The translations under genes were made by a program, and so were the position numbers. This document shows positions 3,710 through 50,318 of a stretch of 54,116 bases of DNA, one piece after another (position 1 is the first letter of the stretch; the number at the start of each line of letters is the position of its first letter). Source of the stretch: Candidatus Methanoperedens sp. (lineage in GTDB: Archaea; Halobacteriota; Methanosarcinia; Methanosarcinales; Methanoperedenaceae); contig JAUSDC010000165.1 of assembly GCA_030650845.1 (NCBI GenBank), forward strand, positions 1-54,116, written 5' to 3'. Under the pieces are notes generated by a model. The model was not told where the DNA came from, made no database searches, and was given only the letters and a program-made list of their open reading frames with translations.

Positions 3710-4801
3710 TTATTCGAGTAATTGCACAGCACGTAAAACATCTGTTCGCGATACAATGCCTATCATTTTTTCATCTTTTTTTTCTATTATTCGCCCGAGG
3801 TTATTCTTAGTAAGGAGTTTCATGACGGTTACTGCTTCATCATTTTCTTTAGCAGTTATTAACTCTTTTGTCATTATCTGCGAGACGTTAACGTTTTTTC
3901 TATCTTCCCTGGCGACTTTCTGCACATCAGAAAAGGTCACGATCCCTTTTACTTCAGAGCCATCTACAACAGGATAACCCATATGTTTGTATTTGAACAT
4001 CATATCCAGAAGTTCTTCAACCGTGGTTTCAGAGCTTACTGTCATAACTTCAGTTGACATTATGTCTTTTACTTTCACGCCTTCAAGTATGACGGTTACC
4101 TCAGTGGATTTCTCTTCTTCTGAGGCTCCGATATATATAAAGAATGCGATGAGTGTGAGCAGGATGTTGTAAAAAAACCCGAAAAATCCCATGAATATAG
4201 CGAACATCTTGCCAATGTTTGCAGCAGTCCTTGTGGCTTTGATGTATGACATCCTTCCTGCAAGCCATGCTCGAAGGACCCTGCCTCCATCCATCGGGAA
4301 CGCAGGTATCATGTTGAAGAAACAGAGAACTACATTGAGAAAGCCCACAAGCCAGATAAGACGCATGTAGGGGTTATCTTCATTGAACAACGCCTCCTGT
4401 CTGAAAATTCCGTGTATCATAATAAGGGCAGAACCGATCAATAGGCTGACTGCAGGACCTGATATGGCCATCTTCAACTCGGTTTTTGGATCTTTGGGTG
4501 TCTCTTCCATTGAAGAAACACCTCCAAAGAGAAAAAGAGTTATATTGTTTATATTGCTTCCGTGCTTTTTGGCAACATAAGAATGACCGAGTTCATGCAG
4601 GAGCACGCAGGCAAAAAGAAGGACAGATGCCGCCATTCCCAGTAAATATCTAAACATTACAGGTTCAACATCACTGAACCCGCCAAATTGTGCTTCATTG
4701 CGCGCGAACATCCATGCAAATACTGGCAAAATCAGCAGAAAAGTAATGTGCAACTTTATCGGGATGCCCATTATTTTTCCTATTTGTATCGAAGTTTTCA
4801 T
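3710..4801 (-). CDS. Site-2 protease-like M50 metalloprotease with CBS pair
   Basis: The product is a 363-residue intramembrane zinc protease. HELGH (69-73) supplies two zinc ligands and the catalytic Glu. The second motif NMIPAFPMDGGRVLRAW (about 162-178) supplies the zinc-binding Asp. Several transmembrane segments fill residues 18-225. Two CBS domains follow (about 240-360), which in this subfamily bind adenosine nucleotides and may gate activity. The start is ATG at 4801 with GGAG six bases upstream; an in-frame GTG at 4813 is less likely. It is the first gene of an operon with the TraB protein and is divergent from lonB. Confidence 0.9.
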   Translation of the reverse strand: MKTSIQIGKIMGIPIKLHITFLLILPVFAWMFARNEAQFGGFSDVEPVMFRYLLGMAASVLLFACVLLHELGHSYVAKKHGSNINNITLFLFGGVSSMEETPKDPKTELKMAISGPAVSLLIGSALIMIHGIFRQEALFNEDNPYMRLIWLVGFLNVVLCFFNMIPAFPMDGGRVLRAWLAGRMSYIKATRTAANIGKMFAIFMGFFGFFYNILLTLIAFFIYIGASEEEKSTEVTVILEGVKVKDIMSTEVMTVSSETTVEELLDMMFKYKHMGYPVVDGSEVKGIVTFSDVQKVAREDRKNVNVSQIMTKELITAKENDEAVTVMKLLTKNNLGRIIEKKDEKMIGIVSRTDVLRAVQLLE

Positions 4802-4887
4802 CAGTTTCTCCACAGGTTATATAAATATCCCTGTTAATAAAGGTCAAGTCGTATAGACTTTATGGCCTTTTAATAAGTTGAGAAAAT

Positions 4888-6801
4888 ATGGAAAACACTC
4901 AAAATGATGAAACTAACCAGGATATTCTTGGCGGGTTGGAGATAACTTCAACCAAAGATATTGAGGTGCCAAAGAAATTAATAGAACAGGTCATAGGCCA
5001 GGAACACGCAGTGGAGGTCGTCAAGAAGGCAGCGAACCAGCGAAGGCATGTGATGATGCTCGGAATACCTGGTACTGGCAAATCCATGCTAGCAAAGGCA
5101 ATGGCTGAACTGCTTCCAAAGGAAGAACTGCAGGATGTTCTTATATACCATAATCCAGAGGACCCGAATACTCCCAAGATACGCATCGTTCCTGCGGGAA
5201 AGGGCAAAGAGATAAATGACGCTCACAAGATGGAAGCTCAGAAGAGGACACAGGCAAGGAACATGTTCGTGATGCTTCTTGTATTCGGAATTGTAGCATA
5301 TTCATATATTATGGGGCAGCTTCTCTGGGGGATAATAGCAGCTGTTTTGATAGCTATAATGATGCGCCAGTTCATGCCCAAGGAGACAATATTTATACCC
5401 AAGCTCCTTGTTTCTAATGTGGGAAAAGAGATGGCGCCATATATAGATGCCACGGGATCGCATGCAGGCGCTCTTCTTGGCGATGTGCGCCATGATCCTT
5501 TCCAGTCAGGCGGTCTTGAAACTCCTGCTCATGACAGGGTAGAGAGCGGCGCTATCCATAAAGCTCATAAAGGCGTGCTTTTCATCGACGAAATTAATAC
5601 GCTGCGCATCGAATCGCAACAGAATTTGCTTACTGCACTGCAGGAAAAGGAGTTTGCTATTACAGGCCAGTCCGAGCGCTCAAGCGGCGCAATGGTCAAG
5701 ACAGAGCCGGTACCCTGCGATTTTATCATGATAGCTGCAGGGAACCTGGATGCTTTAAAAGGCATGCACCCAGCGCTTCGCTCAAGAATAAAAGGTTATG
5801 GTTATGAAGTGTACATGAGCGACACGATAGAAGACAATCCCGAGAACAGGCAGAAGCTTGTGCGCTTTGTTGCCCAGGAAGTCGTAAGGGACGGGAAGAT
5901 CCCTCACTTTGACAGGGGCGCGGTGGAAGAGATCATTAGAGAGGCAAGGCGCAGGGCTGGAAGGAAAGGTCACCTGACGCTGAAGCTGCGAGATCTTGGA
6001 GGGCTTGTGCGCGTGGCTGGAGACATTGCCCACGGTGAAAATGCAGAGCTTACGACTGCAAAGCACGTTTTGAAAGCAAAAAGCATTGCTCGCTCTGTAG
6101 AACAGCAACTTGCGCACCAGTACCTTGAGAGAAGGAAAGATTACAAGCTCTTTGTGAAAGATGGCGCCCAGATAGGCAGGGTCAACGGTCTTGCAGTAAT
6201 GGGCGATGATTCAGGCATCGTGCTTCCGATCATGGCTGAGGTCACGCCGACGCAGTCCAAGGAAGAGGGGCATATCATAGCAACTGGTATGCTTAAGAAC
6301 ATAGCAAAAGAAGCTGTGCAGAACGTTTCCGCCCTTATCAAGAAGTCAACTGGTAAGGATATATCAGGGATGGACGTCCATATACAATTCGTTGGTACGT
6401 ACGAAGGAGTTGAAGGCGATTCAGCAAGTATTTCAATTGCAACCGCTGTCCTTTCTGCCATACAGGGAATACCTGTTGACCAGAGCGTGGCGATGACGGG
6501 ATCATTATCAGTAAGGGGCGATGTGCTTCCTGTTGGCGGCGTCACTTATAAAATAGAAGCTGCGGCACTTGCTGGAATAAAGACGGTCATAATTCCAAGG
6601 TCGAATCTTGGCGACGTTCTTATTGAGGATGAATATAAAGATAAAATCAAAATAATCCCTGTGACAAATATTGAAGAGGTATTGGAACACAGCCTCGTTG
6701 GAAGAGAAAAAGAAGGTTTTATCGCCACAATTAAAAAGCTCACATTAAGAACCAAATTCAATATTGTCCTGCCTGAAACCAAACCTATTACGGTGCTGTG
6801 A
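4888..6801 (+). CDS. lonB: ATP-dependent membrane protease LonB
   Basis: The product is the 637-residue archaeal membrane Lon protease. Walker A GIPGTGKS is at 59-66. A two-segment transmembrane hairpin inserted in the AAA+ domain (about 125-165) anchors it to the cytoplasmic membrane. Walker B is VLFIDEI. The C-terminal S16 domain carries Ser512 in EGDSAS and Lys555 in VTYKIEAA, the expected Ser-Lys dyad 43 residues apart. LonB degrades damaged and regulatory proteins in archaea. The TldD gene begins eight bases after its stop. Confidence 0.97.
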   Translation: MENTQNDETNQDILGGLEITSTKDIEVPKKLIEQVIGQEHAVEVVKKAANQRRHVMMLGIPGTGKSMLAKAMAELLPKEELQDVLIYHNPEDPNTPKIRIVPAGKGKEINDAHKMEAQKRTQARNMFVMLLVFGIVAYSYIMGQLLWGIIAAVLIAIMMRQFMPKETIFIPKLLVSNVGKEMAPYIDATGSHAGALLGDVRHDPFQSGGLETPAHDRVESGAIHKAHKGVLFIDEINTLRIESQQNLLTALQEKEFAITGQSERSSGAMVKTEPVPCDFIMIAAGNLDALKGMHPALRSRIKGYGYEVYMSDTIEDNPENRQKLVRFVAQEVVRDGKIPHFDRGAVEEIIREARRRAGRKGHLTLKLRDLGGLVRVAGDIAHGENAELTTAKHVLKAKSIARSVEQQLAHQYLERRKDYKLFVKDGAQIGRVNGLAVMGDDSGIVLPIMAEVTPTQSKEEGHIIATGMLKNIAKEAVQNVSALIKKSTGKDISGMDVHIQFVGTYEGVEGDSASISIATAVLSAIQGIPVDQSVAMTGSLSVRGDVLPVGGVTYKIEAAALAGIKTVIIPRSNLGDVLIEDEYKDKIKIIPVTNIEEVLEHSLVGREKEGFIATIKKLTLRTKFNIVLPETKPITVL

Positions 6802-6808
6802 TCTAAAA

Positions 6809-8134
6809 ATGGATTTTTACGATACCCGTACCATACGGAGTTATAGCACATCGATATTGCTTGACAATGGAGAGATACGTGAGATATCGAACAATTTCTC
6901 AAGCGGTGCTGCTGTTCGTGCCCTTGACGGCGGCTCGTGGGGATTCGTTTCTCTGGACGATACAGATGCTCTCGATGATGCTCTTATTTCGGCCAGGAAG
7001 CTTGCAGGTGCGGCAAGAAGCAGGTTCCCTCGTGAGAAAATTACGCTTGCGCCAGTGGAAAAACCGAATCTAATGGATCTTCCAGAAGTCAGAGAATCTC
7101 CTGATGATATTTCAATTGAAGATAAAGTCAAATTACTTATTGAAATAGAAAAAAGCGCACGCGTCGATGGAATTTCAAGTACGAACGCAGTTTATTCTGA
7201 GTCGCACGTGACCGTGGGCTATTCAAGTTCTGAAGGACTTGACTGTGAATATACCCTGAACAGGATAGGTTTTGCCATAAGCGCCATCGCACAGTCTGGA
7301 GGTAACTACCAGATAGGAAGAGAAAGCAGGTTTGGGATAATGGGTTTTGAGATATTTAAGAAACATGATGCATTTGAGCTTGCCAGGAAAGCGGGGAATA
7401 CGGCGGTCGAACTTCTATCTGCAAAGACACCCAAAGCAGGCTCATATCCTGTGATACTTGACCAGGAACTGGCTGGCGTTTTTATTCATGAAGCAGTGGG
7501 TCATGCAGTTGAGGCAGACCATGTTATAGAGGGAAATTCAATACTTGCCGGAAAAATTGGAGAGCAAATAGCGGCACCATGTATTACAGTGTATGACGAC
7601 CCCTCAATACATGAATTTGGTTATTATCCATGCGATGATGAAGGTGCAGGATCAAAACGGACTACATTGATCCAGGAAGGCATTCTCAAATCTTTCCTTC
7701 ACTCACGCGAGAGTGCAGGCAAACTGGGCGGCACATCCAGGAACGCCCGAGCACAGGGGTATTCCCGACCTGTTATCAGGATGAGTAATACCTTCATATC
7801 ACCCGATGGGACAAAGTTCGAGGAGATGCTTGAGGAAATAAAGGACGGGATATACCTGATAGGATCGCGCGGAGGTCAGGTGAATCCTGGAGAGGGTGTG
7901 TTCCAGTTCAATGCAGAGCGAGGGTTTATCGTGAAGAACGGGGAACTTTCGACACCGCTGCGGGATGTTTCATTATCAGGCAACACTCTTGAGATACTTA
8001 ACAATGTTGTTATGGTTGGTAATGACCTGAGAATGAATTCAGGAAGGTGCGGGAAAGCAGGGCAGCTTGTGCCAGTGAGTGATGGGGCGCCGCATGTGGT
8101 GGTCAAAAGTGCTGTAGTCGGTGGAAGCGGGTAA
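6809..8134 (+). CDS. tldD: TldD family metalloprotease
   Basis: The product is 441 residues. HExxxH lies at 227-232 (HEAVGH), the metal-binding signature of TldD proteases. Downstream are the conserved DDEGAGSKRT, SRESAGKLGG and GGQVNPGEGVFQFNAERG segments. In bacteria TldD works as a heterodimer with TldE/PmbA to degrade unfolded peptides. No tldE lies beside it, so a partner must be elsewhere. The start is ATG at 6809, eight bases after the lonB stop; an earlier in-frame ATG at 6764 lies inside lonB and is not needed. Cotranscription with lonB fits a proteolysis operon. Confidence 0.92.
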   Translation: MDFYDTRTIRSYSTSILLDNGEIREISNNFSSGAAVRALDGGSWGFVSLDDTDALDDALISARKLAGAARSRFPREKITLAPVEKPNLMDLPEVRESPDDISIEDKVKLLIEIEKSARVDGISSTNAVYSESHVTVGYSSSEGLDCEYTLNRIGFAISAIAQSGGNYQIGRESRFGIMGFEIFKKHDAFELARKAGNTAVELLSAKTPKAGSYPVILDQELAGVFIHEAVGHAVEADHVIEGNSILAGKIGEQIAAPCITVYDDPSIHEFGYYPCDDEGAGSKRTTLIQEGILKSFLHSRESAGKLGGTSRNARAQGYSRPVIRMSNTFISPDGTKFEEMLEEIKDGIYLIGSRGGQVNPGEGVFQFNAERGFIVKNGELSTPLRDVSLSGNTLEILNNVVMVGNDLRMNSGRCGKAGQLVPVSDGAPHVVVKSAVVGGSG

Positions 8135-47011: not shown

Positions 47012-48256
47012 CTATATCCCTGTCTTGAACCTCAATATCGCCCCAATTCCACCAAAGGCTGACATGAGCTGATTCCCTTCTTCAAAATCATTCGAGATGA
47101 AAGCGATGTTAGTGCTCATCTGGTCTGCGATAGTTGAAAGTTCTTCCACTATATCCACAGACTCAACGATCTTCATTCCTGACCCGCATTTTGAACAGTT
47201 CAATGGCTGATACTCCTCTCCAGCCTTCTTCAAAATGGTCTTCTTTTCCTCGTTGGTGCAATTGCCGCATTTTATGGTGAGTCTGAGCTTTCTTAATTCA
47301 TCTGACAATAGCAGTGTATCCACAGAGCCCATTTCAAGGTTCTTCCTTACCTGGTCTTCACCATAAGAAGCAAGACCTGTGTCATTCACAAGCTCTTTCA
47401 TGAAGCGCTCCATGTACTTTTTCTCTTTAACAACGTCAAGATCCTGCAGTGCATCTCCAAGTTTGTCGAACAGTTCATGCAGTCCTGATTCGTCAGTGTA
47501 CGCAACATCAAAGAGACCGAGTATCTTTTTCTGTATTTCATGATGCAGGTATGCCCCGCTTTCGAACTCTTCTTTTGTGGGAGATGGTCCGCCAATGAAC
47601 ACACCCATGAAATCCTTCATGTCAACTGCGAGATATACTTCACTTGCTGCTACCCCTATCTTTGTATAAAAATCATTTATCGCTATGAGGCGAAGCTGCT
47701 GGAACCTGTGAGAGCTCTGTCCTCCTTTTCGTTGTTTTCCAGGGACGTTGGATGTTAGATGTGACATTTCTTCTATGTGTTTTCCGATAAGAAGCCCCAC
47801 TGTTGCTTCTCGCCTGTCAAGCACCAGGAGGCCATATGTCCTTTTCTCATGCAGCATGTCCTCAAGAGGCGTCAGAAGGAAGGATGAATCGCAATGGTAC
47901 TTATAAGATACAAGAGGTTCAGGCGGCTCCATAATGAATGTCTGCATATCAGTCTTGTTGGCGCCAATGTCCACAGCTCCGCAGAAGATCACTACGCCGT
48001 TCACTGGAGCCTTAGGAATAAGTTTAAGCCTGGAAAGCAGGGATTCAATTGCGCCTGTTACATTCTGTCTTGTCACCCTTGACTTGATGTTTGAAGCCTG
48101 ACCGAACTCTTCCCGCAGCTGGCTTGAGACTTCGTGGATTTGTTTATCATGCGGGATATACAGAGATATCAGTTCTGTGCCTCTTCCGTGCTTATCGCTC
48201 AGTGCCTCAAGAGTTCGTTTGAATTCGTATTTTTTATGTGCTTCTGATTCTACCAT
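47012..48256 (-). CDS. prf1: Peptide chain release factor aRF1
   Basis: The product is the 414-residue archaeal class I release factor that recognises all three stop codons. NIKS (56-59) of the decoding domain and GGQ (178-180, in QRKGGQSSHR) of the hydrolysis domain are both intact. A C-terminal zinc-binding motif with CGNC and CSKCG is present. Being intact, it implies normal termination at UGA, which matters for the broken mptG gene next door. Confidence 0.97.
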   Translation of the reverse strand: MVESEAHKKYEFKRTLEALSDKHGRGTELISLYIPHDKQIHEVSSQLREEFGQASNIKSRVTRQNVTGAIESLLSRLKLIPKAPVNGVVIFCGAVDIGANKTDMQTFIMEPPEPLVSYKYHCDSSFLLTPLEDMLHEKRTYGLLVLDRREATVGLLIGKHIEEMSHLTSNVPGKQRKGGQSSHRFQQLRLIAINDFYTKIGVAASEVYLAVDMKDFMGVFIGGPSPTKEEFESGAYLHHEIQKKILGLFDVAYTDESGLHELFDKLGDALQDLDVVKEKKYMERFMKELVNDTGLASYGEDQVRKNLEMGSVDTLLLSDELRKLRLTIKCGNCTNEEKKTILKKAGEEYQPLNCSKCGSGMKIVESVDIVEELSTIADQMSTNIAFISNDFEEGNQLMSAFGGIGAILRFKTGI

Positions 48257-48351
48257 TTTGGATTAAGCTCCGACTATGCAATATGAAGATTTGGTTCTTC
48301 AATATGTGCTATTATAGATAAATGTTGAGTATTTCAAGAAATTGTAAATTT

Positions 48352-48425
48352 CAGACAGGATAAACAGGATCGACAGGATACGATCCAATTCTGAAAATCC
48401 TGTTTATCCAGTAAATCCTGTCAAA
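48352..48425. repeat. ACAGGAT palindromic repeat, copy 2
   Basis: The left arm is GACAGGATAAACAGGATCGA then CAGGATACGATCC. The right arm is AATCCTGTTTATCCAGTAAA then TCCTGTC. It is related to the copy at 34588-34668. It lies upstream of prf1 in a 243-bp gap that otherwise looks empty. Confidence 0.8.
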
Positions 48426-48499
48426 AAAGTTGAGTAAAAAAAATATTATGCTCAGATTATTGGATCTTTCTGCGCATTACGAACAATATGCCAAAAGAA

Positions 48500-49441
48500 T
48501 CATGCTATCTCTATTCTTGCCCCTGTGTTCCTTGCCTTTGTAATAAAGACCTGCCCCTTAGTACCAAGGAATTCCTCAGCTATTTTTCTGAGATCTAAAA
48601 CATCTTCCCCGAATGCGTAAACAGTAGGTCCGAATGAACTCATTCCTGCCCCATATGCCCCTCCTTCCCTGAGTACCTTCATTAATACGTTTGAAACGGG
48701 CGTAAGTGCAACTTCCTTTTTCTTAAATCCAAGTTCCTGGATCGCATTGATACTCCTGCCAAATACTTTCATATCCTCTTCAAAAAGTGCAGGAAGAAGC
48801 TGCATCAATATTATAAGTCAGAGTTTTTCAACCTCGTGCAGAGGGACCGGGCATTCTGTCTTGAATATGTTAACTTCTTTATTCATGGAAGCGCCCTTCT
48901 GCGTGGGTATCGCGATCATGATAGGCCAATCAGGGAAATCTTTTCTTAATATGACTGGAGCCGCTGGAAGCTTGCTTGCTGCGGATGGAAGAAATGCTTT
49001 TTTTTCGCTGAACTTATGTCCTCCATCAAGTATGAAACCGCCGTTCTCAAATGCAGCAACACCGATCCCGCTTGTTCCACCCCTGCCAACTTTCAAGGCT
49101 ATCTCGTTAACGCTTAAACCCAGGCCGAACAGTCTGTTCACAGCCATACCAGCAGCAAGTGATGCCTGTGTTCCCGAACCCATGCCGATGTGGGATGGGT
49201 AATCATTTTCAATGTTTATGAGTATTCCTTCTCCTTTCGGCAGGAGCGCGGAAGCGCTTTTTTTCATGCGCTGCGCGTGTTCGCTGTTCCCTGTGACCTC
49301 AATCATGTCAGATATTTGCGCAGTGATGCTGATCACTGGATCATCAAGCGTGAGCCCGATACTGCCGTCCACACGACCACGTGAGGCATTCATGTCGATA
49401 AGGGTCATGTGCAGGCGTGAGGGGGTGGTTATTTTTAGCAT
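48500..49441 (-). pseudogene. mptG: Beta-RFAP synthase (MptG) interrupted by an in-frame TGA
   Basis: This GHMP-type enzyme makes beta-ribofuranosylaminobenzene 5'-phosphate from 4-hydroxybenzoate or pABA and PRPP, the committed step to tetrahydromethanopterin. The frame from ATG 49441 has SRLHMTLIDMN, the SHIGMGSGTQASLAAGMAVN ATP-type loop and GRGGTSGIGVAAFENGGFI. Codon 208 is TGA (48818-48820). The same frame continues without shift through LMQLLPALFEEDM and AGMSSFGPTVYA to TAA-type stop at 48500, giving 313 positions, the normal family length. Both halves look well conserved. Possible causes are a recent nonsense mutation, a sequencing error, or UGA recoding. It lies 4 bp after hisG. Confidence 0.88.
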
Positions 49442-49445
49442 TTTT

Positions 49446-50318
49446 TCAATGCACTATCTTCGTAATATCCATCTCAAGTATATCTTCAGCCCCAAGCGCC
49501 TTGAGCTTAGGTATCAGAGTATTGATCTCACTCTTGCTCACCACTGTTTCCACTGCATAATAATCCGATTTGTACAGCTTTGACACAGTGGGTCTCTTCA
49601 TGGCAGGAAGGTCATTAACAACAGCATCCAGCCTGTCCTCAGGCACGTTCATTACAATAAACACCTTGCCGCGAGCCTCAAGAACAGCCTGCAGGAGGAT
49701 CTTTATCTCCTCGATCTCTTTCCTCTTTACTGGGTCTTTCCAGGATTTCTTGTTCGCGATAAGTTTTGTTGTGGATTCAAGTATGATATCCACGATCTTC
49801 AATCCATTCTTCCGCAGAGTTGAGCCAGTCTCGGTCAGATCCACTATCACATCCACAAGTTCGGGCACCTTTGCTTCAGTAGCGCCGTATGAGTAGCGTA
49901 TATCAACAGGTATCCCAAGGGCATCAAAGAACTTCTTTGTGAGTTTCGGGTATTCGGTGGAGACCCTGCTTCCGGGTTTAATGTCCTTAGCGGTCTTCAC
50001 GGGCTGATCGTTCGGTACTGCCACTACGATCTTTACAGTCCCCTCTCCCTGTTTGCTGTATATCATATCCGCGACTTCAACAACATCGGAACTTGATTCC
50101 ATTACCCAGTCCTTGCCTGATATCCCCAGGTCAAAGTAGCCTTCTTCAACGTATTTTGGAATTTCCTGAGGACGCAGTATCTTTACTTTCCTGATCCTTG
50201 GATCTTTTACCGTGGGGTTGTATTCACGGTCTGTTTTTTTTATCTCAAGGTCAGCCTGCTTGAAAAGGAGAAGTGTCTGCTCTTCAAGGCTGCCTTTTGG
50301 GATTGCAATGTCTAACAT
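49446..50318 (-). CDS. hisG: ATP phosphoribosyltransferase (long form)
   Basis: The product (290 residues) joins ATP and PRPP in the first step of histidine synthesis. The periplasmic-binding-type catalytic lobes include LDIAIPKGSLEEQTL, DLGISGKDWVMES, YPKLTKKFFDALGI and DVIVDLTETGSTLRKNGL (PRPP loop). The C-terminal ACT-like domain (about 215-290) for histidine feedback marks the HisZ-independent long form. It is four bases upstream of mptG; both enzymes use PRPP. Confidence 0.96.
   Translation of the reverse strand: MLDIAIPKGSLEEQTLLLFKQADLEIKKTDREYNPTVKDPRIRKVKILRPQEIPKYVEEGYFDLGISGKDWVMESSSDVVEVADMIYSKQGEGTVKIVVAVPNDQPVKTAKDIKPGSRVSTEYPKLTKKFFDALGIPVDIRYSYGATEAKVPELVDVIVDLTETGSTLRKNGLKIVDIILESTTKLIANKKSWKDPVKRKEIEEIKILLQAVLEARGKVFIVMNVPEDRLDAVVNDLPAMKRPTVSKLYKSDYYAVETVVSKSEINTLIPKLKALGAEDILEMDITKIVH

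Follow-up and report, generated by a model that had tools for sequence, protein, structure and literature searches.

A premature UGA codon in mptG of a Candidatus Methanoperedens genome: probably an ordinary defective copy or a local error in the sequence

The window, by which we mean the whole stretch of 54,116 nucleotides that was analysed, comes from a Candidatus Methanoperedens MAG, and the named relatives are also Candidatus Methanoperedens. On its minus strand the window carries hisG, mptG and prf1 (Table 1). The mptG frame reads without a frameshift from MLKITTPSR to HEVEKL, meets a TGA at codon 208 (TCA on the plus strand), and continues as LIILMQLLPALF to ARIEIA and the terminal stop. 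Beyond the TGA the frame stays open for 105 further codons. With the profile TIGR00144 (beta-RFAP synthase), a match of 341 bits covered model positions 1-324 of 325 and contained a single internal stop. In addition, Pfam GHMP_kinases_N and GHMP_kinases_C were found above cut-off in the N-terminal and C-terminal halves, respectively. The preliminary description, made from the sequence alone, had reported an in-frame TGA with no shift, full combined length and family features in both halves, and all of this was confirmed. The frame thus retains the two domains of a functional beta-RFAP synthase, lacks its full-length open frame, and carries an inactivating lesion in an otherwise homologous gene, as a pseudogene does.

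Table 1. Positions of mptG, its altered codons and its neighbours in the window
Feature	Position	Strand	Basis or context
mptG (beta-RFAP synthase) frame, 313 codons, one internal TGA	48500..49441	-	TIGR00144; both Pfam GHMP domains; ForT-like predicted fold of the sister protein
Codon 208, in-frame TGA; Ser (TCN) in every intact Methanoperedens homologue read	48818..48820	-	
Codon 209, CTT (Leu); His in every Methanoperedens homologue read	48815..48817	-	
Codon 247, ACG (Thr); Gln in all 23 other genus sequences, aligned Gln in ForT	48701..48703	-	
Codon 160, GCG (Ala); Pro in all 23 other genus sequences	48962..48964	-	
Post-stop open frame, 102 aa, GHMP C-terminal domain; TTG-ATG just 3' of the TGA	48500..48808	-	
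hisG, upstream neighbour of mptG	49446..50318	-	Common genus order hisG-mptG-prf1
prf1 (aRF1), downstream neighbour of mptG, frame intact	47012..48256	-	

An alignment of homologues at codon 208 had been proposed as a check. All intact Methanoperedens homologues that we read have Ser-His at positions 208 and 209, as does ForT, the closest solved structure, and the window has TGA-CTT. No homologue was found to end naturally at this codon, the intact genus members continuing through it with Ser, and no internal mptG stop was found in the other genomes of the genus set. The codon is TCA in the sister species and TCT in the next relative, and an ancestral Ser codon has been replaced by TGA in the window. 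Outside the genus, column 208 holds Ser, Cys or Ala in Methanosarcina-like relatives and is more varied further out, indicating that it is not a strict catalytic residue. Column 209 is mostly His there, with Arg or Tyr in some lineages.

The gene had been called otherwise intact, but the window departs from the 23 other genus sequences at four of their invariant sites (P160A, S208stop, H209L and Q247T). The losses at 160, 209 and 247 had escaped notice, as had the different mptG locus in the sister species. Since other genus members break 0-6 such sites, the count of 4 out of 120 alone is not extreme. The neighbouring hisG of the window has no private change at invariant sites. Four private changes were seen in the window prf1 (R20S, I109M, R157I and Gly to Leu at about residue 352), at sites invariant in 13 other sequences; two of the four need two-base substitutions, and the sister's prf1 has no private change of this kind.

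Compared with the sister gene, the window mptG has a dN/dS of 0.14 and no further stop or frameshift. Because the ratio is still low and no other lesion has accumulated, the inactivation appears recent, and we conclude that the codon-208 lesion is recent or artefactual. Polarised amino-acid changes in mptG numbered 27 on the window branch and 13 on the sister branch. Part of this excess may reflect a longer branch, as prf1 also shows 44 third-position changes on the window branch vs 27 on the sister's. At 0.62, the dS between the mptG genes of the window and the sister falls within the range of other genes (about 0.29-0.72) and is therefore no proof of an older duplication. Counts of changes by codon position, and of transitions vs transversions, in prf1 and mptG did not clearly indicate a general excess of sequence errors in the window.

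One explanation for the interrupted frame is local recoding, in which the UGA is read as selenocysteine, or as Ser or Trp (by read-through or a suppressor tRNA), yielding full-length MptG. The open frame past the stop and the two recognisable domains are consistent with this, and a Cys/Sec-type residue is chemically conceivable at a column that is often Cys outside the genus. However, the genus residue is Ser, and the adjacent His has been lost as well. SepSecS is required for archaeal selenocysteine (PMC9499178). A search for SepSecS, one of the checks proposed, found none in the genome, and the M. jannaschii positive control was detected. Nor was a tRNA-Sec found in the genome, the sub-threshold matches being tRNA-Ser and tRNA-Leu genes. 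We accordingly rejected selenocysteine at codon 208. An opal suppressor was also rejected: ARAGORN called no UCA anticodon in the loci of 44 tRNA matches, although tRNAs with large introns (e.g. Trp) may escape such calls, and the two matches without an ARAGORN call were inspected by eye only. Around mptG, Rfam gave no credible match, archaeal SECIS elements being possibly poorly covered there. Among the tRNA loci, one called Thr(AGT) on contig C187 of the window genome (positions 1501-1573 of the stretch read) has the anticodon loop TCAGTAA without the usual U33 and is odd or degenerate.

Genome-wide use of TGA was also considered. Of the 456 long coding-like ORFs sampled across about 1 Mb of the genome, 176 end in TGA, and the aRF1 frame is open, in agreement with the earlier view that global UGA reassignment is unlikely. 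The scan of about 1 Mb for genome-wide recoding yielded mostly tandem gene junctions, and this candidate was dropped. In an ORF comparison of the window genome with its sister, from which antisense shadow ORFs were filtered out, about 240 gene comparisons yielded mptG as the sole convincing case of an in-frame interruption; the other stops left after filtering resemble shadow ORFs by composition. A TGA within an HdrB paralogue of another genome (G029) proved to be a natural gene end only. Elsewhere in the window genome (contig C60, position 31360), an in-frame TAA separates the protease and PDZ parts of a putative trypsin-PDZ (HtrA-like) protease in local translation, possibly a pseudogene or split gene. 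No paper on premature stops in Methanoperedens was found in the literature.

Given the absence of SepSecS and of a UCA tRNA, the ordinary use of TGA as a stop and the single convincing interruption, recoding is very unlikely, and this applies to selenocysteine and to programmed read-through at codon 208 alike. It is likewise very unlikely that a near-cognate tRNA, or termination weakened by an aRF1 slightly altered through its private changes, yields full-length MptG in an archaeon without a selenocysteine system. The preliminary description had left three options, namely a faulty assembly, a nonsense mutation backed by another gene copy elsewhere, and local recoding. The first two remain, and the third is strongly disfavoured by the missing SepSecS and UCA tRNA, the ancestral Ser and the lost His.

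The predicted effect on the protein was judged from an AlphaFold2 model of the sister MptG (mean pLDDT 86.6; TM-score 0.87-0.89 vs ForT). In this model, residue 208 lies inside helix 201-221, at the start of the C-terminal domain. The 207-residue product would break off within the helix that opens the C-terminal GHMP domain. Because the rest of that domain is missing, the truncated protein should be non-functional. A split enzyme, in which translation stops after codon 207, restarts at the downstream TTG-ATG and gives two chains that reassemble into MptG, could draw on the position of this start pair, four codons past the TGA, and on the approximate correspondence of the halves to the N and C GHMP domains. 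But the break falls within the predicted helix and not in a linker, conserved residues at the break are lost, and no other genus member has a stop in mptG. We consider such an arrangement highly improbable.

We compared the number and the neighbourhood of mptG copies within the genus. Nearly all genus genomes that are at least 90% complete have mptG above cut-off, and no genome of the genus set has two copies. DNA and profile searches found no second mptG in the window genome's assembly; a match on contig C83 was rejected as a weak, partial-model match far under cut-off. The usual genus neighbourhood places mptG beside hisG, prf1 or both. In the sister species (G016), whose prf1 is 97% identical to that of the window, the one intact mptG is not between hisG and prf1 but on contig C1 (within 38000-56000) in the order AMMECR1-mptG-hdrC-hdrB-dus, and among the genus neighbourhoods mptG beside hdrC was seen in this genome only. 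There, metK adjoins prf1 at the position held by mptG in most relatives, and the order shared with the window breaks just upstream of prf1. A palindrome-like repeat, ACAGGATAAACAGGAT ... ATCCTGTTTATCC, lies in the prf1/mptG intergenic region (window 48347-48430), close to where synteny with the sister breaks off. On contig C109 of the window genome, two transposase-like genes (positions 4252-6820 of the stretch read; putatively IS110-like by sequence) are situated near AMMECR1 and not far from a rearrangement that distinguishes the two genomes.

Contig C27 of the window genome begins inside hdrB, at residue 158 (positions 1-436 of the stretch read). Absent from the assembly are hdrC, the 5' half of hdrB and the preceding sequence; hdrB is present in every genome of the genus set. 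A relocated working mptG could sit in this gap upstream of hdrB. The search for a second gene, which had also been proposed, thus came back empty for the assembly and at the same time pointed to a specific gap that could contain one. Mch is intact in the window genome, and H4MPT use is retained.

We favour, with a probability of about 0.47, a real and recent nonsense allele of mptG at the old locus, combined with a working copy at another site. The mptG of the hisG-mptG-prf1 locus would then be a non-functional copy whose UGA is read as an ordinary stop, and the cell would tolerate it by virtue of the second, working gene. That gene would most plausibly lie upstream of hdrC-hdrB, as in the sister, where the assembly has its gap; on this hypothesis mptG would have been duplicated before the split from the sister, and the gap would contain the copy. 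Several observations support a recent allele. The Ser codon became TGA and the next codon's otherwise invariant His was lost with it; P160A and Q247T arose on the window branch, which has the larger number of amino-acid changes; no second lesion is present and dN/dS is low. The sister has an intact gene at a new locus, the matching stretch is missing here, and the intact Mch fits a working copy elsewhere. Against these, the second mptG is not in the assembly and no genus-set genome has two, and the mptG-hdrC neighbourhood is confined to the sister, so that the move may postdate its split from the window species. Moreover, the number of broken sites is within the genus range, the 27:13 excess is perhaps partly branch length, and dS leaves an older duplication unproven. 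The main competitor, which we regard as possible but do not prefer, is that the TGA and the altered next codon stem from a faulty consensus or assembly, or from a minority strain whose variant entered the consensus, and that mptG is intact in the real population. The assembly comprises 258 contigs and has 4.85% contamination. As mptG is single-copy in the genus and H4MPT-based C1 metabolism is central, the cell would pay heavily for a real loss. Apart from the TGA the frame is open and shows purifying selection, and a single local error could account for one interruption in about 240 comparisons. However, such an error would have to comprise two changes (or three, with CAC as the ancestral His codon) in a stretch of five bases whose flanks are clean, and P160A and Q247T break invariant residues far from codon 208. 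The rarity of interruptions elsewhere also indicates that the assembly is not error-prone in general. True loss of the pathway step, with methanopterin or a precursor imported from neighbours, agrees with an assembly that has no other mptG. It is hardly to be expected in view of the near-universal retention of mptG in the more complete genus genomes, the intact Mch and the incompleteness of the assembly at the sister's mptG site.

Whether a recent allele or an error, the event would be an ordinary one, and the findings speak for a commonplace defective gene or a local fault in the sequence and not for a special use of UGA. If real, the locus is a snapshot of an essential gene vanishing from its old site after a move to a new one, and gene-presence calls in fragmented genomes can mistake a broken copy for the sole copy. 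If an error, one local fault can mimic recoding in an essential archaeal gene.

Like archaeal selenoproteins, in which UGA encodes selenocysteine, the window mptG has an in-frame UGA, at a column that is Cys in some homologues outside the genus. Unlike them, it belongs to a genome in which no SepSecS or tRNA-Sec was found, the genus residue is Ser, and an adjacent invariant residue is lost too. The gene resembles the MptG family of the GHMP kinase superfamily in its whole-length match, its two GHMP domains and its hisG-mptG-prf1 neighbourhood; it departs from the family in its stop and in the loss of P160, H209 and Q247. Although the working second copy that accompanies nonsense pseudogenes is here unseen, with just a gap able to hold one, the locus is like recent pseudogenes of this kind that follow relocation or duplication: its lesion is single and early-stage, its dN/dS is low, and the sister species has the gene intact at a new locus.
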